Assembly (NCBI RefSeq): GCF_001854245.1
Contig: NZ_CP015381.1
Span: 2,143,001 to 2,207,000 of the forward strand
Direction of reading: 5' to 3'
DNA length: 64,000 bases
From: Desulfococcus multivorans
Lineage (GTDB): Bacteria; Desulfobacterota; Desulfobacteria; Desulfobacterales; Desulfococcaceae
The notes below the pieces were generated by a model that was not told the origin of the DNA, ran no database searches, and was given only the letters and a program-made list of their open reading frames with translations. This document shows, in pieces, positions 12,424 through 25,767 of this stretch. The position numbers were made by a program, and so were the translations under genes. Each line of letters opens with the position of its first letter. Positions within the stretch are counted from its first letter, which is position 1.

Positions 12424-14943
12424 ATGACGATCCGATATCTTGACAAGATGTTCAAGCCGGCGTCGATGGTCCTGATCGGCCCCGGTCCCATGCCTGGGAC
12501 CGTCGGAAACGTCGTGCTCCAAAATGTCCTCGGGTCCGGTTTCGAGGGGAAAATCTTCCGGGTCGATCCCGGGCCGGAAACGCCGGCATCCCCGGCGACG
12601 GACATACCGACGTACGCGCGGATCTCCGAACTTCCCGAAGTACCCGATCTCGCGGTCATTCTGAGACCGCCGGCAGCCGTCCCCGGAATCCTTCGGGAAC
12701 TGGGGGAGAAGGGCACCCGCGCAGCAGTGGTCATGATGCCGGGGCTGTTCGAAAAACACCCGTGGACGCGGGAGCGCCTCGGCCGGGAGATGCTGGCCGC
12801 TGCAAAGCCTTACGGCCTTCGCATCATCGGACCCGGCTCCCTGGGGATCATGTCGCCGTTGGCCTTTCTCAATGCCGGTTATGCCCACATCCACGCATTG
12901 TCCGGATGGCTCGCCTTTGTCGGGCAGTCCGACAATATGATCGCTTCCGTTCTGGACTGGGCGACCCACCACCGGATCGGATTTTCCCATTTCGTTTCCC
13001 TGGGCGACTCGGCGGACGTCGACGTCGGGGATATGCTCGATTATCTTGCCAACGATCATCACACCCGTGCCGTCCTGCTCTATGTCGAAACCGTCGCCGA
13101 TGCCCGGAAATTCATGTCGGCGGCCCGGGCCGCATCCCGGATGAAACCGGTCATCGTTTTCAAGGCAGGCAGGGCGGGGCCCATCGTTCCGGACGGTGTT
13201 TCCCATGTGGAATCCGACGCCGTTTACGACGCCGCCTTCCGCCGTGCCGGGATGCTCCGCGTGAGCAGCATCCAGGCGCTTTTCGACGCCGCCGCCACCC
13301 TGGCCGCTCTTCAATCGGTGACCGGCAGCCGGCTGGGGATTCTCACCAACAGCAGCGGCGCCGGCGCCCTTGCCGCGGACAGCCTCATCGCCGGGAATGG
13401 GCGCCTGGCCGAGTTCACCTCCAAAACCGCCGCCCGACTCCGGCGGATGCTTCCGGCAACGTCCCCTCCGGCAAATCCCCTCAATCTTGGAGAGGACGCC
13501 GATCCCGACCGATATGCCGCCGCCCTGGAAATTCTCCTGGAGGATCGACACACCGATGCCGTACTGGTCCTCAACTGCCCCCATGCTATTGTCTCCGGCA
13601 CTGCGGTCGCACGAGCCGTTATCGAGGTCTTTCGGTCGAAGCTGGATCCCTATGGAAAACGCCATACCCTGCTGACCAACTGGATCGGCCGGGGGGCGGC
13701 CGTGGGACACGGGCGGCTTTTTGCAGAAAACGCCATCCCCACTTACGAAACCCCGGACGACGCCATACGGGCGTTCATGCGGATGGTCCGCTACCGGCAC
13801 AACCAGGAAATGCTCATGGAAACCCCGCCGAGCATCCCCGACGCCTTCTCGCCCGTCGGCGACACCCCGCGGAAGATCATCGGGACCGCGCTTGCCCGGG
13901 GCCGTGATCGGCTTACCAAAGCCGAAGCATCGGCCCTTCTCGAGGCCTACCGCATTCCGACGGCAAAAATGGGCGGGCTCGCGGATGCGGAAAGGGCGGA
14001 AGTTGAGGTGAACTGCCGCTCCAATGCCCATGAATTGATGATCGGGATGACGGAGGATGCCCGATTCGGCCCCGTCATCCGTTTCGGGCACGGGGGGAAC
14101 GCCGTCGACATCATCGACGACCAGGCCCTGGCCCTGCCGCCGCTCAACCTGCACCTGGCCAGAGAGGTCATGGAAAGAACCCGTATCTTCAAGCTGCTGA
14201 AGGGATACGGCGACACGCCCGCCGCCGATCTCGACGCCGTTGCGCTGGTTCTGGTCAAGGTGTCTCAATTGATCTGCGACATCGCGGAGATCCGCGAACT
14301 GGTCATCAACCCGATTCTGGCGGACCCCGACGGGGTGACGGTTATGGACGCCGCTTTCCGGATCTCGCCCTCGGAAAGCCCGCCGGAAGCGCGTCTGGCC
14401 ATCCGTCCATATCCGAGGGAACTGGAGGCGGCGGTCCGGACGAAGGACGGCCGGGGCCTCCTGGTCCGTCCCATCCGACCGGAGGATGAACCTGCGTTCT
14501 GCGACCTGTTTGACAGCATGTCCCGGGAAGAGGTCCGCCTCCGGTTTTTTCGGTACATGAAAACGATCTCCCACACCCTGGCGGCCCGTCTCACCCAGAT
14601 CGATTACAACCGTCAAATGGCCCTGGTACTGACGGACATGCCGGAACCCGGGGCAACGGCGTCGATTTACGGCGCGGTGCACGTCAACATGGATCCCGAC
14701 AACGTATCCGCGGAGTTCGCCGTCATGGTCAGAAGCGACATGACCGGCATGGGGTTGGGCTCTCTCCTGATGCGGCAGGTCATGCAGTACTGTCGGCGTC
14801 GCGGGGTTTCCGAAATCTTCGGCGACGTTCTGGCGGACAATACCGCGATGCTGGCACTGGCCCGATCCCTGGGATTCCAGGTGGAACGCCGGCCGGAGGA
14901 TCCGGCGGCGGTGGTCGTCCGCCTGCGCCTGGACGACGCATAG
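12424..14943 (+). CDS. Degenerate ADP-forming acyl-CoA synthetase fused to GNAT acetyltransferase (Pat-like)
   Basis: This 839-residue protein is paralogous over its full length to the one at 16944-19652 (both begin MTIR-LDKMFKP). The CoA-binding glycine motif is altered (GASDTPG becomes GPGPMPG), and the loop after the catalytic His is shortened (SHTGAMAGSD becomes SHVESD). Some 63 residues of the ATP-grasp domain, including the 'VVLKILS' lysine strand, are deleted. The C-terminal GNAT domain is intact, with 'DMTGMGLG' for acetyl-CoA binding. Bacterial Pat/PatZ has this architecture with a dead synthetase half and acetylates acetyl-CoA synthetase. Here it stands just before that gene, so it is probably a regulatory lysine acetyltransferase. 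Confidence 0.8.
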   Translation: MTIRYLDKMFKPASMVLIGPGPMPGTVGNVVLQNVLGSGFEGKIFRVDPGPETPASPATDIPTYARISELPEVPDLAVILRPPAAVPGILRELGEKGTRAAVVMMPGLFEKHPWTRERLGREMLAAAKPYGLRIIGPGSLGIMSPLAFLNAGYAHIHALSGWLAFVGQSDNMIASVLDWATHHRIGFSHFVSLGDSADVDVGDMLDYLANDHHTRAVLLYVETVADARKFMSAARAASRMKPVIVFKAGRAGPIVPDGVSHVESDAVYDAAFRRAGMLRVSSIQALFDAAATLAALQSVTGSRLGILTNSSGAGALAADSLIAGNGRLAEFTSKTAARLRRMLPATSPPANPLNLGEDADPDRYAAALEILLEDRHTDAVLVLNCPHAIVSGTAVARAVIEVFRSKLDPYGKRHTLLTNWIGRGAAVGHGRLFAENAIPTYETPDDAIRAFMRMVRYRHNQEMLMETPPSIPDAFSPVGDTPRKIIGTALARGRDRLTKAEASALLEAYRIPTAKMGGLADAERAEVEVNCRSNAHELMIGMTEDARFGPVIRFGHGGNAVDIIDDQALALPPLNLHLAREVMERTRIFKLLKGYGDTPAADLDAVALVLVKVSQLICDIAEIRELVINPILADPDGVTVMDAAFRISPSESPPEARLAIRPYPRELEAAVRTKDGRGLLVRPIRPEDEPAFCDLFDSMSREEVRLRFFRYMKTISHTLAARLTQIDYNRQMALVLTDMPEPGATASIYGAVHVNMDPDNVSAEFAVMVRSDMTGMGLGSLLMRQVMQYCRRRGVSEIFGDVLADNTAMLALARSLGFQVERRPEDPAAVVVRLRLDDA

Positions 14944-16943: not shown

Positions 16944-19652
16944 ATGACGATTCGGAATCTCGACAAGATGTTCAAACCCAAGTCCATTGCGCTCATCGGC
17001 GCCAGCGATACGCCCGGCACATTGGGAAACGTCGTTACGCGAAACCTGCTCGGCGCGGGATTCGAAGGGGATATTTTCCCGGTGAACCCGAAATATGCCA
17101 CCGTATCCGGGGTTGCCGCCTATCCGGACGTCGCGAGGATTCCTTTTGTTCCGGACCTTGGCGTTATCGTGACCCCGCCGGATACGATCCCCGGCATCAT
17201 CCGTCGCCTGGGGGAAAAGGGCACTCGGGCCGCCGTCGTCATCAGCGCGGGATTCATCGACGTACAGAACCGGAACGGACGAGCGCTGCAGCAGGCCATG
17301 CTCGATGCGGCCAAACCCTACACGCTTCGCATCATCGGCCCCAACTGCCTGGGGGTCATGGCGCCGGGCGGCTTTCTCAACGCCGGCTTTGCGCACATCC
17401 ACGCCCTGCCCGGACGACTCGCTTTCGTGGCGCAATCCGGCGCAGTGATCGCATCGGTGCTCGACTGGGCTACCCATCGCCGGATCGGCTTCTCCCAACT
17501 CGTATCCCTGGGCGACATGGCGGACGTCGATTTCGGCGACATGCTCGACTATCTCGCCAATGACAGCCACACCCGCGCCGTCCTGCTCTACGTCGAGGCC
17601 GTCACCCATGCCCGGAAGTTCATGTCGGCGGCACGGGCGGCGTCGCGGATGAAGCCGGTCATCGTGGTCAAGGCCGGACGGCATGTCGAAGGGGCACGGG
17701 CGGCCGCATCCCATACCGGCGCCATGGCCGGATCCGACAGGGTTTACGACGCAGCATTCCGCCGGGCGGGCATGCTGCGGGTCAGCGACATGCAGGCCCT
17801 CTTCGATGCCGTCGGCACCCTTTCCGTCACCCAGTCGGTGTCCGGGGACCGGCTGGCCATTCTCACCAACGGCGGCGGGGTGGGGGTCATGGCTACCGAC
17901 ACCCTGATCAACAAGAAGGGGCGTCTGGCCGCCCTGAGCCCGGAGACCCTGGATCGCCTCGAGGATGTCCTTCCGTCCACCTGGTCCCACGGCAATCCCG
18001 TGGATATCGTGGGCGACGCCGCCGGCGATCGGTATGCCGCCGCCCTGGAGAACCTGTTGGGGGATCCGGAAACCGACGCCGTCCTGGTGATCAACGTGCC
18101 CACGGCGGTGGCGTCGAGTTCGGAGGCGGCCCAGGCCGTCATCGATGTTTACAAGGAAAAAAGTCGAGCCCAGTCCCGGCCCAAAACCCTTCTCACCAGC
18201 TGGATCGGCGAAGGCGCCGCCGCGGGATCGCGTCAGCTCTTCACCGACAACGGGATTCCCACCTATCAAACTCCGGATGATGCCGTCCGGGCGTTCATGC
18301 AGATGGTCCGTTACCGGCACAGCCAGGAGATGCTGATGGAGACGCCGCCCAATGTTCCGGAACAGTTCAGGCCCGATCCCGGGGCGGTGAGGGCGGTTGT
18401 CGGGAAGGCCCTCTCGGAAGGGCGCGAGTGGCTCTCGGAAGCCGAGGCCAAAACGGTGCTGGGCGCCTACGGAATTCCCGTCGCCGAAACCCTGACGGCC
18501 GAAACCCCAGAAGCGGCCGAGCGTGTCGCCGCGGACATGGGGCTTCCCGTGGTCCTGAAGATTCTCTCCCGGGACATCACTCACAAATCCGATGTGGGCG
18601 GCGTCGCCCTGGATCTCGAGTCCCGGGCGCGGGTGCGCGAAGCGGCGGCGGCCATGCTGGGCCGGGTCCGGGAGGCCTTTCCCAAGGCGGTCATCGAGGG
18701 CTTCACCGTCCAGCCCTACATTAAGAAGCCCCACGCCCACGAGCTCATCGTCGGCATGACCGAGGACGAGCAGTTCGGACCCGTGCTCCTTTTCGGCCAC
18801 GGCGGCACGGCCGTGGAGGTCATCGACGATCAGGCGCTGGCCCTGCCGCCGATGAATATGCATCTGGCTCACGAGGTCATGTCCCAGACCCGTATTTACC
18901 GGCTGCTCGAGGGCTATCGGGGAACCCCGCCGGCTGACCTCGAGGCCGTGGCCCTGACCCTGGTGGAAGTCTCCCAGTTGATCTGCGACATTCCCGAGAT
19001 CAGGGAACTCGACATCAACCCGCTTCTGGCGGACCATGACGGCGTTATCGCACTGGACGCCCGGATGCGCGTGGCGCCTGTGGAAGATGCCGCGACGGAT
19101 CGGCTGGCGATTCGACCCTATCCCAAGGAACTGGAGGAGATTATCCGGCTGCCCGACGGCCTGGAATTGATGCTGCGCCCCATCCGGCCGGAAGACGAAC
19201 CGGGCTTTCAGGATCTCTTCACCCAGCTCTCCATGGAGGAGATCCGCCTTCGCTTCCTGCACTATATGAAGATACTTTCCCACTCCCTGGCGGCGCGACT
19301 GACCCAGATCGATTACGATCGTCAGATGGCCCTGGTGCTGACGGATCCGCCGGACCATGAAGGCAGGAGGGAGCTTTACGGCGCGGTGCGCATCAGCGCC
19401 GACCCGGACAACGAGCGGGCTGAGTTCGCGATTCTGCTGAGGGGCGACATGACGGGCATGGGCCTCGGCCCCCTGCTCATGCGGCGGATCATCGACTATG
19501 CCGGAAAGCGCGGGATCGGTGAGCTGTACGGGGACGTCCTCGCCGACAACAAATCCATGCTGACCCTCGCCCGGGCCTTCGGGTTCAGGGCCAGGCCCGA
19601 TCGGGAGGATCCCGGGATCATGATCGTGACCCTCCCGCTTTCAAAGGACTGA
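16944..19652 (+). CDS. ADP-forming acyl-CoA synthetase (alpha+beta) fused to GNAT acetyltransferase
   Basis: This 902-residue protein has four parts. They are a CoA-binding Rossmann domain ('LIGASDTPGTLGN'), a succinyl-CoA-synthetase-like domain with the phosphohistidine loop 'ASHTGAMAGSD' (His257), an ATP-grasp domain ('GLPVVLKILSRDITHKSDVGGV', then 'GHGGTAVEVIDD') and a C-terminal GNAT domain with 'DMTGMGLG' acetyl-CoA loop. All catalytic residues of the synthetase half look intact, unlike the paralog at 12424. It may both interconvert acyl-CoA and acyl acid plus ATP and acetylate lysines. It starts 100 bp after acsA. An AAAGGAG site sits before the ATG. Confidence 0.85.
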   Translation: MTIRNLDKMFKPKSIALIGASDTPGTLGNVVTRNLLGAGFEGDIFPVNPKYATVSGVAAYPDVARIPFVPDLGVIVTPPDTIPGIIRRLGEKGTRAAVVISAGFIDVQNRNGRALQQAMLDAAKPYTLRIIGPNCLGVMAPGGFLNAGFAHIHALPGRLAFVAQSGAVIASVLDWATHRRIGFSQLVSLGDMADVDFGDMLDYLANDSHTRAVLLYVEAVTHARKFMSAARAASRMKPVIVVKAGRHVEGARAAASHTGAMAGSDRVYDAAFRRAGMLRVSDMQALFDAVGTLSVTQSVSGDRLAILTNGGGVGVMATDTLINKKGRLAALSPETLDRLEDVLPSTWSHGNPVDIVGDAAGDRYAAALENLLGDPETDAVLVINVPTAVASSSEAAQAVIDVYKEKSRAQSRPKTLLTSWIGEGAAAGSRQLFTDNGIPTYQTPDDAVRAFMQMVRYRHSQEMLMETPPNVPEQFRPDPGAVRAVVGKALSEGREWLSEAEAKTVLGAYGIPVAETLTAETPEAAERVAADMGLPVVLKILSRDITHKSDVGGVALDLESRARVREAAAAMLGRVREAFPKAVIEGFTVQPYIKKPHAHELIVGMTEDEQFGPVLLFGHGGTAVEVIDDQALALPPMNMHLAHEVMSQTRIYRLLEGYRGTPPADLEAVALTLVEVSQLICDIPEIRELDINPLLADHDGVIALDARMRVAPVEDAATDRLAIRPYPKELEEIIRLPDGLELMLRPIRPEDEPGFQDLFTQLSMEEIRLRFLHYMKILSHSLAARLTQIDYDRQMALVLTDPPDHEGRRELYGAVRISADPDNERAEFAILLRGDMTGMGLGPLLMRRIIDYAGKRGIGELYGDVLADNKSMLTLARAFGFRARPDREDPGIMIVTLPLSKD

Positions 19653-20680: not shown

Positions 20681-20938
20681 TCATACCTCCTTTTGACGGT
20701 ATTTGGGCCCAAGATAGGAGAGGCATCCGGAAAGGGAGGCCAGGAGGGGACATTCCGTCTCGGGGATTCGGATCCCGAGCCGTTCCTGAAGCTTGATCGA
20801 GAAGTTCAGAAAGTCCACCGAACTGAACTCGAACTGGTCCCGGAACCGGGTATCCGGATCGAGTTCGGAAAGGTCCGCTTCCGGCGCAATGTCCCGGATG
20901 ATCTCCAGGATGATGTTTTTGAGTTCGTCTGATGTCAT
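20681..20938 (-). CDS. Acyl carrier protein
   Basis: This 85-residue acidic four-helix protein has the phosphopantetheine site at about Ser40 in 'FEFSSVDFLNF'; the usual D-S-L reads S-S-V here. The first helix is 'DELKNIILEIIRDIAPEADLSELDPDTRFRDQF', typical of stand-alone ACPs of secondary or specialised acyl systems rather than the AcpP of fatty acid synthesis. It lies between the chimeric AAA protease and the quinone oxidoreductase on the same strand. No ketosynthase or acyltransferase is near, so the acyl group it carries is unknown. AAAGGAG stands ahead of the ATG. Confidence 0.85.
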   Translation of the reverse strand: MTSDELKNIILEIIRDIAPEADLSELDPDTRFRDQFEFSSVDFLNFSIKLQERLGIRIPETECPLLASLSGCLSYLGPKYRQKEV

Positions 20939-21019
20939 AATATACTCCTTTTGAGGACAATTGAAAACAGCCGGGGACGCAAGGCCGGCGGACAGCGTCT
21001 ACGGCCGTGGGCACGGCCT

Positions 21020-23458
21020 TCAGTCTCCCTTCATCAGTACATCCAGCTCAGCGCCGTCGACGATCTCCTGTTGAATGAGGACGGACGCCAGATGTTCGAT
21101 CCTGTCCCAGTGCTTTTCCACGAGCATCCCGGCCTTGGCCGAGGCATCGCCGATCCAGTGCTGGATACGCTTCTCCAGTATCCCCTGAAACATGGTTTTT
21201 TCCACATGGTGCTGGAGGGTATCCACATGGACAAACCCGATCTCTTCGTCCATGCCCATCCCCGCGACGGCCGAATAGGCAAGTTGCGTGGCCTGCTCGA
21301 GGTCGATTCCCGATCCGCTGTCCATGCCGCTCGGGCCGAATTTCCGGATCTGGGCGATCCTTCCCGAGAGCATCACACAGATATTGTTGAAGATCTCCTC
21401 TTTGGTGAAATTGTCGTCGAAATCCTCGCCGGTGTAGGCGACAAACCCCAGGGTGTTGGATCGGGGCGTGATGGTGACCTGCTCGATCTTGACGTGGGGC
21501 AGGAGGGTCTGGGAAATCACCGCATGGGCCGCCTCGTGGATGGCGGTTTTCCTGAGGTCTTCCTCGATGTTCCGAATGTGTTTCCGGTCGAGCTTGCTCC
21601 CGTACTTGATGGTGTTGATCTGATCGATGAGGATCTCTTCGGTGATGCAGTCCAGATCGTTGCGGATGGCGTAAAAGGCCGCCTCCTGACCGATGCGTTC
21701 GAGCTCGTATCCGCTCATCCCCGAGATATAACGGATGACCTTGTCGACGTCGATGTTGCCGTCGTTGGGTTTTTCGAGGATTTTCTCGATGAAGAACCGC
21801 CGGGCCTCACGATCGAGCTCCGGAACCTCGACGGAAATGTCGATCCGGCCGGGGGAGACCAGATCGGGGTTGACGTCCTCCCGGTTCTGGGCCGTGACGA
21901 TGGTGAAGACGAACTCGGCGGGATCCGAGGAGACGGCTTCCAGCTCCATCAGGATCTGTTCCACCGATATGGGGGTGAGCGTCCCCTCCACGACGCCCTT
22001 GATGTCGATTTCGTCCAGAAAGACGATGCTGGGGGCGAACACCCGGGCCTTCTGGTAGACCTGCCGGATAAAATTGGGATCGAAAAGGTCGCTTCCCGAG
22101 ACATAGACCAGGGGCAGGTTGGCCTCCCTGGCGAATGCCTTGCCCAGGAGGGTCTTGCCGACGCCCGCGGGACCGTGAATGAGCATGCCCTTGGGCATCC
22201 CGATCCCGAACGCCTTGACCTTGTCCGTCTTTTTCAGGATCGAGATGATCTCCCTCAGATGCTTCTTGACGGGTCCGTGGCCGGCGACGTCGTCGAACCC
22301 CGTGGCGGAGAATTTGATTTCGGGAAGATCGTCCTGGAAAAGCGGCTTCGCGGGCGGCAGCTGTTTCCGGGCGACCCGGGCCAGGGTAAAGGTCACGGCG
22401 TCGTCGCCGGTCTCGACATCCCAGCCGAGCTCGATGGTCTCGTTCCTGATGAAGAGCTGCTGGGAATGGGTGATGCTCAACCGGTAGTGGCGCTTCAGAA
22501 AGGTGCCGGCCGCTTTCGAGATCCTGAAAACGGCCTTCCCCGGTATGGGATGTCCCTCCCGGACGTATTGGGTGATCTGCCCGAGAAGCAGATCCGGCAG
22601 CCGTTTCTGAATGCGGCGCGTGTTGATGTAGGGTGCGAAGGAGAGCACCAGCAGCTTGACCATCGGGACAAAACCCTCGAACACCAGCTCGATGCCCGTG
22701 GTTCTGGAAAAATGACGGGACAGGGTCTTCAGTGTGGTTTTGCCGATTTTCACCACGGCGTCCAGGGAGAGCCGCCGGAAAATCACCAGGTATGCCTGGG
22801 ACATCACCGAAAGCAGCTTGGTGGAGATGACGGGCTGAACCGTCTCGAGCCCCATCTTTTTTTCCTTGGAGACGGCATCCATGATCAGGGCCTGGGCCTG
22901 GAGGCGGTTCTCCCGGACCGCCGTCATGAAGGCGCGACTCTGGTACATGGCGCTGCCGAGGGTGGAGGTGAAAATCACCAGCACCTCGCTGCAGTCGAGG
23001 CCGGTTTCCTGGGGATCGCCGGTGAGGATCTCAAGAAGGGCGTTCTGGAGCCGCGTGTCCGCCTTTTCGATCTCATTGAACAGGAGGATCGACCGGGGCC
23101 GGCTCCTCAGAAAGACCATCAACTCGCCGTCCTGACCGCCGTCGTAGCCCACCTGCCCCAGAAGCCGGGTCTCGTCCTCGGGGGTGGTGTACTGTCCCAT
23201 GTCGAACTGCCGAAAGGCGGTGTAGTCATCCATGAGGGCGGCCAGGGATCGGGCCAGATAGGCCTTGCCCACGTAAGGCGGTCCGATGAAGGTGAAGATG
23301 GCCCTGGGTGGAGACTGGACGGGTTTGCAGGCCATGTGGATGAAGGCGTCGATAACCTCGTCGATGGCCTCGTCCTGGTCGTAGACGAGCTTTTTCAACT
23401 TCCGCCCCAGCTTTTCATATTTCTGAAACACGTTTTGCCGAGCCTCGGTCGGCTTCAT
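21020..23458 (-). CDS. Chimeric AAA+ protease: degenerate Clp-like AAA domain plus FtsH-like AAA and M41 peptidase
   Basis: In this 812-residue protein, residues 20-300 match a ClpA/ClpB second AAA module: 'VYDQDEAIDEVIDAF', Walker A-like 'GPPYVGKAY' (59-67), 'GYDGGQDGEL', Walker B-like 'LLFNEIEKA' (D to N), sensor-1 'IFTSTLGSA' (Asn lost), and the Clp small-domain 'SFAPYINTRRIQKRL'. Residues 390-610 are an FtsH-type AAA with Walker A 'GPAGVGKTL' (429-437) and Walker B 'IVFLDEID' (478-485). Residues 635-800 form the M41 peptidase with 'HEAAH' (641-645) and the third ligand Asp in 'GIDLEQAT' (719). The FtsH membrane anchor is missing, so it should be soluble. It leads the operon with the ACP and oxidoreductase. 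Confidence 0.85.
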   Translation of the reverse strand: MKPTEARQNVFQKYEKLGRKLKKLVYDQDEAIDEVIDAFIHMACKPVQSPPRAIFTFIGPPYVGKAYLARSLAALMDDYTAFRQFDMGQYTTPEDETRLLGQVGYDGGQDGELMVFLRSRPRSILLFNEIEKADTRLQNALLEILTGDPQETGLDCSEVLVIFTSTLGSAMYQSRAFMTAVRENRLQAQALIMDAVSKEKKMGLETVQPVISTKLLSVMSQAYLVIFRRLSLDAVVKIGKTTLKTLSRHFSRTTGIELVFEGFVPMVKLLVLSFAPYINTRRIQKRLPDLLLGQITQYVREGHPIPGKAVFRISKAAGTFLKRHYRLSITHSQQLFIRNETIELGWDVETGDDAVTFTLARVARKQLPPAKPLFQDDLPEIKFSATGFDDVAGHGPVKKHLREIISILKKTDKVKAFGIGMPKGMLIHGPAGVGKTLLGKAFAREANLPLVYVSGSDLFDPNFIRQVYQKARVFAPSIVFLDEIDIKGVVEGTLTPISVEQILMELEAVSSDPAEFVFTIVTAQNREDVNPDLVSPGRIDISVEVPELDREARRFFIEKILEKPNDGNIDVDKVIRYISGMSGYELERIGQEAAFYAIRNDLDCITEEILIDQINTIKYGSKLDRKHIRNIEEDLRKTAIHEAAHAVISQTLLPHVKIEQVTITPRSNTLGFVAYTGEDFDDNFTKEEIFNNICVMLSGRIAQIRKFGPSGMDSGSGIDLEQATQLAYSAVAGMGMDEEIGFVHVDTLQHHVEKTMFQGILEKRIQHWIGDASAKAGMLVEKHWDRIEHLASVLIQQEIVDGAELDVLMKGD

Positions 23459-23501
23459 ATGGGCTCCTTTTGAAGGCGGTCGGAGGGGACGCCGCGGTGT
23501 T

Positions 23502-24539
23502 TCACCCTCGCCGGCCGGGTTTGAGGGAAGGATCCGTTACGATGATGAAGGTGTCGCCGCCGGCCGCGGCAGGGTCGAAGGCCGGAAACGAGGACAGGGA
23601 AAGCACCGTCACCGTCACGATCGAGACATCCTTACGGTACTCCCGGAGGTGTTCCGGAATGCCCAGCCCGGATTGGCTGTGGAATTTGCCGTTGACGTGG
23701 AGCGCCAGGGCGCCGGGGTGACGCGCTAAAGCCTCCGAGAGGTGAAAGGCCATGCCGGCATCCCACAGGGATTGGGCCGCCAGGAGGCGCTCGAAGCGCT
23801 CTTCGATTTCCGCTGATGCCGCGGCCTCGGAAGGGGCGTCCATGGGCGGCGCCGGGATTGCGGGTCCATGGGGAACGTTTCCCACCTGGGTTTCTTCCCA
23901 GAAATTCCTGAATTTTTCGCGATAGGCCGCCGAGGCTTCGCCGTAGGGCAGCGGCGGGAGCCAGGCCCTGGACGCCGGAAAGAGGGGATCGAGAGCCGAA
24001 CGGCCCAATCGGGCGACGCGGTTGACGTACCGGCTCGGCGCGTTGGCCGCGACGACGGGGATGCCGTTGCTTCTGGCGAATTCGATCAGGGGGCGGTAAT
24101 CGGTCGGATATCCCGGCCACGGTCTCGCGGCCTTCAAAAAGTGACGTTCGGTGATCAGGTCCGCGAGATATTCATCCACGACCGTTTGAACGTCCGCCTC
24201 GAACATTTCCAGGGAAAGAAGAACGGGTCTTTCCCGCCCGGAAGGGCCGCCGGATCGGCAGGCCTCGAAGAGCCGCTCGAGAAGGTTCGATTCCAGAAAA
24301 TGGGCCGCCGGATCGTCGTGTTCCTCTCCGATGAAAACGACGTCCGCCGCGGCGGCCGCCGAAACGATATCCTCGAGGGTCGCGGGGGCGCCGACGCCGT
24401 CGTAGACCCGGAAATGTCCGGGGGTGACGGCGGGGGCTTCGGGCGCGCGCATTCTCCCGTGGGGGGAGCGGATGCCGCATCCGGCGGCGAGCAGCAGCAC
24501 GCCGATGCAGATCAGAGGTCCTATGGTTTTGGTGATCAC
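23502..24539 (-). CDS. ChaN-family lipoprotein
   Basis: This roughly 345-residue protein starts at GTG 24539. A short lipoprotein signal ends in the lipobox 'LLLAAGC', so it should be lipid-anchored after export. The body is the ChaN/Tiki-like fold: 'DVVFIGEEHDDPAAHFLE', 'LSLEMFEADVQTVVDEYL', 'YRPLIEFARSNGIPVVAANAP' and C-terminal 'VNGKFHSQSGLG' with the conserved HxNG-like strand. Family members bind heme or are suspected membrane-linked peptidases or hydrolases. The start is weakly supported because no ATG and no strong ribosome site are present. It is 43 bp downstream of the protease gene's promoter side and on the same strand. Confidence 0.75.
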   Translation of the reverse strand: MITKTIGPLICIGVLLLAAGCGIRSPHGRMRAPEAPAVTPGHFRVYDGVGAPATLEDIVSAAAAADVVFIGEEHDDPAAHFLESNLLERLFEACRSGGPSGRERPVLLSLEMFEADVQTVVDEYLADLITERHFLKAARPWPGYPTDYRPLIEFARSNGIPVVAANAPSRYVNRVARLGRSALDPLFPASRAWLPPLPYGEASAAYREKFRNFWEETQVGNVPHGPAIPAPPMDAPSEAAASAEIEERFERLLAAQSLWDAGMAFHLSEALARHPGALALHVNGKFHSQSGLGIPEHLREYRKDVSIVTVTVLSLSSFPAFDPAAAGGDTFIIVTDPSLKPGRRG

Positions 24540-24567
24540 GTCTGGCTCGCTTTCTTTGGGTTCGGAT

Positions 24568-24655
24568 GCATTGTCATTCAACTTCCGGTGTTCGAGGCCG
24601 GTGCCGGCAGGGGAGGGCCTACGCGGTCTGGAGTCGCCGACACGGCACTGAATGT
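24568..24655. repeat. Decayed copy of the palindromic element
   Basis: 'ggccggtgccgg', an 'acgcggt' block and a terminal 'cattcaact...' resemble the element at 8938-9178, but with many changes. It lies in the gap between the ChaN-like gene and the histidine kinase gene. Confidence 0.35.
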
Positions 24656-24690
24656 CAAACCGACGACTGAATCCTACCATACCCTCTCGA

Positions 24691-25767
24691 TCAGAGGATG
24701 GGAAGTGCAAAACTGAAAATGGCACCGGATCCGATCCGGCTCTGAACGCCGATCCTTCCGTTGTGCGCCTCGACGATTTTTTTGGCGATGGCGAGTCCCA
24801 ATCCCGTACTGGCCTCTCCGTCGGTGGGCGGGCTCCCGAGCCGCTGGAACTCCCCGAAGAGCCGTTTCTGGTCCTCGCTGGAGATGCCGGGGCCCTGGTC
24901 CCTGACAAAGACCCAGGCCTTCCCGTCTTTTCGCTTCAGGAACACCTGCACGAGACTGCCTTTGGGGGAATACTTGACGGCATTGCTGATGAGGTTGTCG
25001 ATGACCTGGCTGATGCGGTTGGGGTCGAAGGAGAAGGGCGGAATCTCCTCGATTTCGGTCTGGATGGTAATCTGCTTCTTGGCCGCCAGGTGCTCGGCAA
25101 ACTGAATCCTCTGCGTCAACAGGGTGTTGAGGGAGGTCGCCGCCGTGGAGAGTTTGAGATGGCCGCTCTCGATGATCGACACGTCCAGAAGATCATTGAC
25201 CAGAGAGAGCATGTGCCGGGCGGACTGATCGATTCTCATGAGCAGATCGTCGCCCTTCTCGGGAGACTCCCGGAGAAGTCCGGAGCGCAGCACCTGGGCG
25301 ATGTTGATGATGACCGCAAGGGGGTTTCTGAGATCGTGGGCCGCGATCCTCAGGAATTTGTTCTTGATCTCGTTGGATTCCCTCAGCTTGTCCTGCGCCT
25401 CGACGAAACGCTTTCCGACGGCGACGCGGCTGCGGAGTTCGTTGACGTAAAAGGGTTTGGTCAGGTAATCGTGGGCCCCGCTGTCCAGGGCGTGGACGAT
25501 GCTCTGTTTTTCCGTTTTGCTGGTCAGGAGGATCAGGTAGATGAATCGCTCGTCGGCATGATACTGCATGCGTCGGCAGATCTCGACGCCGTCCGGCTCC
25601 GGCATGACCCAGTCGAGTATGGCCAGCCGGGGCGGATCCTCCGAGGTCAGCGCCGACCAGGCCTGGACCCCGTTCACCGCCTCGATGATGTCATACCCCC
25701 ACTTGGCCGCGATATGCTTGAGGTAGGCGCGAATGGTCGGGTCGTCATCAGCGATGAGCAGCTTCAT
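24691..25767 (-). CDS. Response-regulator receiver fused to histidine kinase
   Basis: This 358-residue soluble protein has an N-terminal receiver (acidic pocket 'IADDDP', phospho-Asp52 in 'AILDWVMPEPDG', Lys in 'YLTKPF') followed by an HisKA domain with His144 in 'IAAHDLRNPL'. It then has an HATPase domain ('DNLISNAVKYSPKG', 'DQGPGISSED', 'STGLGLAIAKKIVE'). There is no sensor or membrane segment, so the receiver is the input, as in hybrid kinases that take a phosphate from an upstream kinase. The output regulator is not encoded nearby. An AAGGAGT site lies ahead of the ATG. It is probably monocistronic. Confidence 0.9.
   Translation of the reverse strand: MKLLIADDDPTIRAYLKHIAAKWGYDIIEAVNGVQAWSALTSEDPPRLAILDWVMPEPDGVEICRRMQYHADERFIYLILLTSKTEKQSIVHALDSGAHDYLTKPFYVNELRSRVAVGKRFVEAQDKLRESNEIKNKFLRIAAHDLRNPLAVIINIAQVLRSGLLRESPEKGDDLLMRIDQSARHMLSLVNDLLDVSIIESGHLKLSTAATSLNTLLTQRIQFAEHLAAKKQITIQTEIEEIPPFSFDPNRISQVIDNLISNAVKYSPKGSLVQVFLKRKDGKAWVFVRDQGPGISSEDQKRLFGEFQRLGSPPTDGEASTGLGLAIAKKIVEAHNGRIGVQSRIGSGAIFSFALPIL

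Follow-up and report, generated by a model that had tools for sequence, protein, structure and literature searches.

A putative soluble Clp-FtsH-M41 fusion peptidase of Desulfococcus multivorans and its family in Desulfobacterota and Campylobacterota

M41 proteases are described as membrane-anchored enzymes, in which an aromatic pore loop draws substrates in. Here we describe a gene of Desulfococcus multivorans (Desulfobacterota) whose product joins a degenerate ring module of the Clp type to an FtsH-type AAA domain and an M41 peptidase. The gene lies within a 64,000-nucleotide stretch of contig NZ_CP015381.1 (positions 2,143,001 to 2,207,000, assembly GCF_001854245.1), referred to below as the window; coordinates of all features are collected in Table 1, and other loci and genomes carry L and G numbers. 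A sequence-only reading of the window had proposed this fusion, and had suggested that a dead Clp module recognises substrates or adaptors and feeds them to an active FtsH half.

The nearest published case that we found is that of the FtsH ternary conflict systems, which are MoxR-vWA-centred and contain two FtsH-type AAA domains, the first without a P-loop (Kaur et al. 2020, PMC7159879). Our protein shares with those systems the two AAA domains, the inactivity of the first and a candidate conflict-system setting, but differs in a first ring that is of the Clp type and retains the P-loop lysine (44/44), and in the presence of M41. Neither MoxR nor vWA genes were found among the six window neighbours scanned, and a vWA-like open reading frame (ORF) near the L116 cluster was noted by eye only. 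Cdc48/p97 also stacks two rings, of which, in eukaryotes, only one bears aromatic pore loops (PMC7226402); a two-ring protein with an aromatic pore loop in just one ring is a likeness to the fusion, but Cdc48/p97 has no peptidase, and the order and type of its rings are different. Compared with FtsH itself, the fusion has the same AAA-M41 order, the HExxH motif with its aspartate, the first arginine finger and, in the window member, the Walker motifs; unlike FtsH, it has a Clp-type ring in front and no evident membrane helices, and it lacks both the second arginine finger and, by deletion, pore loop 1. The second AAA ring of ClpB, Hsp104 and ClpA is matched in sequence and, across about 300 residues, in fold, yet those proteins have two Clp-type rings to the one seen here, in which the hydrolysis residues are mostly replaced and to which an FtsH-type ring and M41 are attached. 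Another degenerate FtsH relative is found in Campylobacterota, the phylum of many fusion members: a paralogue of about 547 amino acids (aa), which we take to be of the HP0286 type, and which in the two copies aligned (L030, L029) has an intact AAA domain, pore loop and both arginine fingers and has lost HExxH, the reverse of the fusion family. In 48/61 Campylobacterota genomes there were frames of 490-598 aa that matched M41 weakly. The possibility that the fusion is an already described family was raised at the outset; no description was found in the literature searched, most subscription papers being outside that search.

We read the family, at roughly even odds (about 0.5), as soluble two-ring M41 metallopeptidases, descended from an ATP-driven Clp-FtsH fusion and in the process of shedding their motors. 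Its members probably cut proteins in another manner than ordinary AAA+ proteases do, as the loop that grips substrates is absent from all relatives found, while the cutting site is present in nearly all. Such enzymes would represent a soluble M41 branch without a pore loop, in which graded motif decay and living intermediates form a natural series on the roles of AAA rings beyond pulling, and would place an FtsH-type protease beside STAND-like NTPase genes, which may be immune systems.

Domain architecture

Pfam matches of the window protein above cut-off, among the 20 families listed, included AAA_2 (residues 53-198), AAA_5 (57-145), AAA (425-546) and Peptidase_M41 (633-806), with AAA_lid_3 (569-608) falling below it. 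The FtsH_fam profile (NCBIfam TIGR01241) matched residues 385-804 with 230.7 bits (3.9e-68) against a cut-off of 600, ClpB (TIGR03346) matched residues 13-303 with 88.2 bits against 1232.1, and ClpA (TIGR02639) scored 84.7 against 993.15. These scores, far under the cut-offs, place the protein outside the curated FtsH and ClpB families, and no curated Pfam or NCBIfam profile spanned both halves above cut-off as one family.

Residues 1-380, searched alone, matched 48 distinct PDB sequences, led by ClpB (1.5e-20, residues 12-171) and all of the Clp/Hsp100 type, provided that 8xon/8xoo, labelled 'NDP-hexose 4-ketoreductase', are ClpC1 as the entry title has it. FtsH was not among them, and the N-terminal half is thus not an ordinary FtsH variant. 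For residues 381-812 the top match was FtsH (1.2e-51), followed by Cdc48-type rings, among the best 60 of 65. The two halves therefore score separately, in line with the view of Clp and FtsH as separate families. An AlphaFold2 model (input of 43 family sequences; mean predicted local distance difference test 82.1, predicted template modelling score 0.59) points the same way: residues 7-352 superpose on the second nucleotide-binding domain of ClpB (4fcv; Z 21.9, 300 residues, 4.3 Å), and residues 369-812 on an E. coli FtsH model (9a2p; Z 21.5, 437 residues, 7.8 Å). Many AAA chains, NVL and p97 included, were within one Z unit of each other in this comparison, as expected of the fold. Peak hydropathy over 19 residues reached 1.74 in the window protein and at most 1.88 in the family, against 2.2-3.2 in six FtsH and FtsH-like references, so that by this simple scan membrane helices are not evident. 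The fusion of a Clp D2-like module with FtsH-type AAA and M41, and the absence of the FtsH helices, had both been read from the letters alone, and both are upheld by these profiles, PDB matches, model and scan, as well as by a family of 53 members.

Motif loss, peptidase and selection

The distance from the Walker A lysine to the Walker B aspartate of the FtsH-type ring was 47 residues in 53/53 members, as opposed to 53 in 8/8 references (six FtsH, two FtsH-like paralogues) and in 30/30 Campylobacterota FtsH (from the 30 best-scoring M41 loci), all 30 with an F/Y/M-V/I-G motif in between. The six-residue gap falls on MFVGVG in the family alignment, and an independent HMMER alignment with A. 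aeolicus FtsH skips those same residues; as aligned, FtsH pore loop 1 is absent from all 53 members found. According to a review (PMC9020784), substrate is bound in FtsH by the phenylalanine of the FVG motif, which slides into the pore. The second arginine finger was present in 0/53 members, and the first arginine finger position held Arg in 46/53 and Lys in seven short members. While the P-loop lysine was kept throughout (53/53), the Asp-Glu pair (DE) of Walker B was present in 19/53 and lost in 34/53, and Asn stood at the aligned sensor-1 position in 8/53. The FtsH half of the window protein had been called active-looking, which holds in part: its Walker motifs and its first arginine finger are intact, but it has neither pore loop 1 nor a second arginine finger, and its sensor-1 region reads Gln, then Asn.

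Residues of the Clp-type ring were tabulated for 44 members (excluding seven short members, L003 and L064). The lysine equivalent to Lys65 was kept in all 44, the Walker A Thr in 10, and DE, sensor-1 Asn and arginine finger in 7 each; five members (L042, L043, L055, L056, L057) were wholly canonical. Only Lys65 and Glu129 remain of the ATPase motifs in the window member, where the Walker A Thr, Walker B Asp, sensor-1 Asn and arginine finger are all replaced. The motifs picked out beforehand were confirmed (the Clp-ring Walker A, GPPYVGKA; Asn for Asp in Walker B, at residue 128; loss of the sensor-1 Asn, where Thr166 stands; and, in the peptidase, HEAAH). The description of the Clp module as dead may fit the window member, in which it is degenerate, but does not fit the five of 44 with complete motifs. 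These five carry an aromatic residue in the Clp pore-loop region, which is shortened in several other groups.

Seven short members (L067-L073) have no Clp module. A hidden Markov model search (E up to 1e-20) of their ORFs returned only the AAA-M41 gene itself and no separate Clp-like half of the family in the 11-18 kb read; the L070 ORF is longer (639 aa), its first 191 residues being unmatched to the family. At the start of the longer Campylobacterota members a Clp N-domain was not detected, with an hhalign probability of 0.2% compared to 0.3-2.0% in three control regions, and no Clp_N match in Pfam. One ClpC chain did align from residue 1 of a longer member, but at a root-mean-square deviation of 18.8 Å across several domains.

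The peptidase site is retained in nearly all members: HExxH was intact in 51/53 members, with L002 (YEAGR) and L038 (YEAGH) as the exceptions, and the third zinc-ligand Asp was found in 52/52 (L064 has no letters at the position). Both were retained also in lineages with decaying ATPase motifs. The ratio of nonsynonymous to synonymous substitution rates (dN/dS) in 14 close pairs was 0.043-0.183 for the Clp ring (11 values), 0.016-0.075 for the FtsH ring (13) and 0.015-0.156 for M41 (14), with several dS >1, i.e. near saturation, and undefined values omitted. Ratios well below 1 argue that the degenerate rings are not in free decay, and, in the pairs where dN/dS could be computed, all domains are under purifying selection.

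Distribution, origin and possible function

Phyletic distribution was one of the checks proposed with the sequence-only reading. Scanning a collection of bacteria and archaea for a sequence pattern, an approach limited to close relatives and the sole one to touch phyla beyond Desulfobacterota, Campylobacterota and Bacteroidota, returned an uncultured Desulfococcus (81%), a full-length Sulfurimonas protein (32%), a Helicobacteraceae fragment (40%) and one ordinary Clp. Whole-genome searches, with thresholds placed above ordinary FtsH and ClpB scores that more diverged members would escape, found the fusion in 8/96 relatives and 6/395 same-phylum genomes (window genome in both), i.e. 13 Desulfobacterota genomes, and the family in 39/397 Campylobacterota genomes, 32 with and 7 without the Clp module. 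The answer for Bacteroidota (0/395 at 1e-110) was obtained with no positive control and shows nothing. Passing thresholds in 13 Desulfobacterota and 39 Campylobacterota genomes, with dN/dS well below 1, the fusion is no chance product; the two phyla together gave 53 non-redundant proteins. In one of them (L064/L086, G627) the gene is split inside M41 into overlapping ORFs of 660 and 157 aa, by frameshift, assembly error or recoding.

Canonical FtsH, recognised as a frame of 624-714 aa that matches M41 with a high score, was present in 61/61 Campylobacterota genomes, and the fusion additionally in 7/61; since all seven carriers have both, the fusion is no replacement for FtsH. The window genome holds four further FtsH-type and two ClpA/B-type matches. 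No place covering 80% of the L084 fusion was found in 72,556 plasmid records (E up to 1e-30) or 50,697 phage records (E up to 1e-20). With an earlier family alignment, two matches were obtained in viral contigs, both weak and partial. In the proteins scanned, PADLOC recognised generic AAA parts, such as that of IetA.

In a tree of 51 members and eight references, built on the AAA-M41 part (L025, cut at a contig end, and L064, with its frame split, were excluded), the family separated from the references, and L057, L002+L038, L042+L043 and L055+L056 fell outside a clade of 44 members (support 100/100). The FtsH ring of all seven outsiders is canonical in Walker A, DE and sensor-1 Asn, and among them are the five members with canonical ATPase motifs in both rings. 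The short members nest within the 44-clade, as sister to the L044-L054 group (95/93), making a single, later loss of the Clp module the simplest account (L003, a fragment, was unscored). Within the Campylobacterota part of the tree, the members from Desulfobacterota make up a single clade (97/95), requiring one change, which suggests a single transfer within the sampling done. Minimum numbers of changes on the tree were one each for loss of the pore loop, the second arginine finger and the Clp module, three for the FtsH-ring Walker B, and two for HExxH (one in the references).

Gene surroundings were read at 50 wide loci from 48 further genomes, with duplicates (L001/L098, L002/L075) counted once. 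DUF4062-NTPase genes, STAND-like through weak NPHP3_N, NACHT or nSTAND1 matches, adjoin the protease in 4/7 genomes outside the 44-clade (G842, G521, G563, G533), and DUF4062 matches occurred in 0/41 other genomes in the DNA read. TrkA_N genes are close to the protease in G521, G563 and G533, the G533 homologue being split in two ORFs, and in G842 lie 12-16 kb away on the same contig, together with RyR; the G563 and G533 clusters also hold a TIR gene. TrkA-RyR and DUF4062 proteins have a role in conflict systems. The link with such systems is a lead, no demonstration.

As side observations, the DUF4062-NTPases beside canonical fusions are giants, some with TPR, and are accompanied by TrkA_N genes (some with RyR) and TIR genes (L079 11045-18001, L108, L083, L084, L102); at a PADLOC threshold of 0.001 the DUF4062 proteins of L079 (11045-14545), L084 (10878-15788) and L083 were unmatched, and a fourth had a weak match only. 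The two Sulfurimonas-type loci (L002, L038) share a related gene of 125-141 aa nearby.

On the reading that we prefer, that of a two-ring peptidase losing its motors, the ancestor, of a kind still seen in a few Campylobacterota, would have kept the ATPase motifs of both rings complete and carried an aromatic residue in the Clp-ring pore-loop region, with the Clp ring doing the pulling; its FtsH ring would already have lacked the second arginine finger as well as pore loop 1. We infer hexamers from the retained P-loop lysines and from the Arg in 46/53 members at the R538 position, an inter-subunit finger. Bound nucleotide could hold the ring in shape or gate access, instead of pulling substrate; the Clp ring may serve as a cap, scaffold or docking surface; and substrates might be chains that need no forcible unfolding to reach the M41 chamber, being disordered, short or delivered by a partner. 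The proximity of the protease to DUF4062-STAND-like and TrkA_N genes in the four genomes would suit a beginning as the protease of a conflict system. Put together as a history, which we offer tentatively, a protease of a STAND-NTPase conflict cluster, with its Clp ring pulling into the FtsH-M41 chamber, would have lost the FtsH pore loop first, next hydrolysis by the Clp ring, then hydrolysis by the FtsH ring on several occasions, and finally the Clp ring, the M41 site staying under selection throughout, to leave, in Campylobacterota and Desulfobacterota, soluble M41 peptidases that are gated by ATP or independent of it.

Several observations weigh against this reading. The window member's FtsH ring, with GPAGVGKT, FLDEID and R538 all in place, may still hydrolyse ATP and could thus do ATP-driven work, and its Clp ring retains a Tyr in the pore-loop region (GYDGG) as well as the Walker B Glu. 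Loss of sensor 1 in the FtsH ring depends on the alignment, given that 13 members besides the eight, the window protein included, carry Asn one position later. Nor is the peptidase everywhere the part retained, as L002 and L038 have lost the first zinc His, along with the Clp-ring Walker B Glu, and keep their FtsH-ring ATPase motifs. M41 is also not clearly the domain under the strongest constraint: where a pair gave both values (13 pairs), the FtsH ring had the lower dN/dS seven times and M41 five times, one pair being tied, and in the window's own pair (L005-L001) M41 stood at 0.156, higher than the Clp ring at 0.137 and the FtsH ring at 0.055. The long outgroup branch, flagged by treekit, leaves the order of the deepest forks and the ancestral state unsure. 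As to the conflict-system origin, no STAND-like genes turned up within the 18 kb read of G813, the genome of one of the five canonical members, and the proteins of the closely related G563 and G533 are 94% identical, which reduces the association to about three independent cases.

The intact Walker A, Walker B and R538 of the window protein, its degenerate Clp ring and the strong constraint on its FtsH ring are what would be expected if an inactive Clp ring recognised substrates or adaptors and passed them to an active FtsH ring for ATP-driven unfolding and degradation, as first proposed. We nevertheless consider this unlikely for the family: the loop that would grip the substrate is missing from 53/53 FtsH rings, as is the second arginine finger, Walker B has decayed in most members, and the seven short members do without a Clp ring altogether, one pair of them (L071-L073) being under strong selection (0.02). 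A Clp ring that still does ATP-driven work would be favoured by the complete motifs and pore-loop-region aromatic residue of the five canonical members, and by GYDGG and Glu129 in the window protein; with four of its motif residues replaced there, we consider this improbable. Plant FtsHi proteins, whose M41 domain is thought to serve assembly only, offer a precedent for a non-proteolytic scaffold or chaperone, to which the altered zinc motif of the two Sulfurimonas-type members and the missing HExxH of the 547-aa paralogue would lend themselves; the near-complete conservation of HExxH and of the third Asp, including lineages whose ATPase motifs decay, makes this account improbable. That the protein is simply an FtsH variant minus its membrane helices could appeal to the strong FtsH_fam match of residues 385-804, but is hardly credible in view of a score at 230.7 of the required 600 bits, an N-terminal half of the Clp second-ring type, the position of the members apart from the references, and the canonical FtsH that every one of the seven fusion carriers among 61 genomes has besides.

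Gene neighbourhood and coordinates

The protease gene of the window is flanked by genes for a carrier protein and a ChaN/Tiki-type protein (Table 1). Constant travel with an acyl carrier protein (ACP) had been put forward for checking, and the ACP is rejected as a constant partner, since a close homologue (1e-28 or better) was found in only 3/49 genomes, namely the window genome, G001 and G005; G001 and G005 were also the only other genomes with a ChaN-like gene near the protease, and in G005 the protease and ACP genes are separated by an ORF that looks lipocalin-like by eye. Distant ACP-like ORFs at 3-5 kb from the protease in L105 (1.9e-9), L112 (2.2e-9) and L082 (9.4e-5) were left uncounted, and a few ACP genes could be missed where six loci end <3 kb from the protease on one side. 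Both neighbours are habits of the window lineage.

Table 1. Features of the fusion gene and its neighbours; positions count from the first base of the window and residues from the start of the 812-aa protein.
Feature	Position	Strand	Remarks
Acyl/peptidyl carrier protein (PP-binding) gene	20681..20938	-	81 bases downstream of protease; lineage-specific neighbour, not counted in system
Clp-FtsH-M41 fusion protease gene	21020..23458	-	812 aa; ATG start, AGGAG a few bases 5'
Peptidase M41 domain and stop codon	21020..21598	-	residues 621-812; profiles
Third zinc-ligand position, Asp719	21302..21304	-	alignment
Zinc motif HEAAH (641-645)	21524..21538	-	alignment
FtsH-type AAA domain	21599..22303	-	residues 386-620; profiles, structure
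R538 to I541: arginine fingers, first kept and second lost	21836..21847	-	alignment
FtsH-ring Walker B FLDEID (480-485)	22004..22021	-	alignment; intact in window member
Junction D460/P461, site of deleted FtsH pore loop 1 (MFVGVG)	22076..22081	-	by alignment
FtsH-ring Walker A GPAGVGKT (429-436)	22151..22174	-	alignment; intact
End of beta-hairpin and linker	22304..22402	-	residues 353-385; model
Clp/ClpB second-ring-type AAA+ module, degenerate	22403..23458	-	residues 1-352; Pfam, NCBIfam, structure and sequence match
Clp-ring sensor-1 position, Thr166 in place of Asn	22961..22963	-	alignment
Clp-ring Walker B LLFNE (125-129)	23072..23086	-	alignment; Asp to Asn at 128
Clp-ring Walker A GPPYVGKA (59-66)	23261..23284	-	alignment; Thr to Ala in window member
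ChaN/Tiki-type Cofac_haem_bdg protein gene	23502..24908	-	43 bases upstream of protease; ORF start uncertain

An open plus-strand ORF antisense to the protease (20951-23473, 840 aa) was set aside, the Pfam and family matches belonging to the minus-strand product; the plus-strand product itself was unsearched. At six of the seven short-member loci (L067-L073) an ORF resembling uracil phosphoribosyltransferase (by eye) lies beside or near the protease. Elsewhere in the window, two tandem paralogues on the plus strand (12424-14943 and 16944-19652) combine CoA-binding, succinyl-CoA-ligase, ATP-grasp and GNAT parts and flank an AMP-binding enzyme; 508 of their 835 aligned positions are identical, and the first is short of about 60 ATP-grasp residues.

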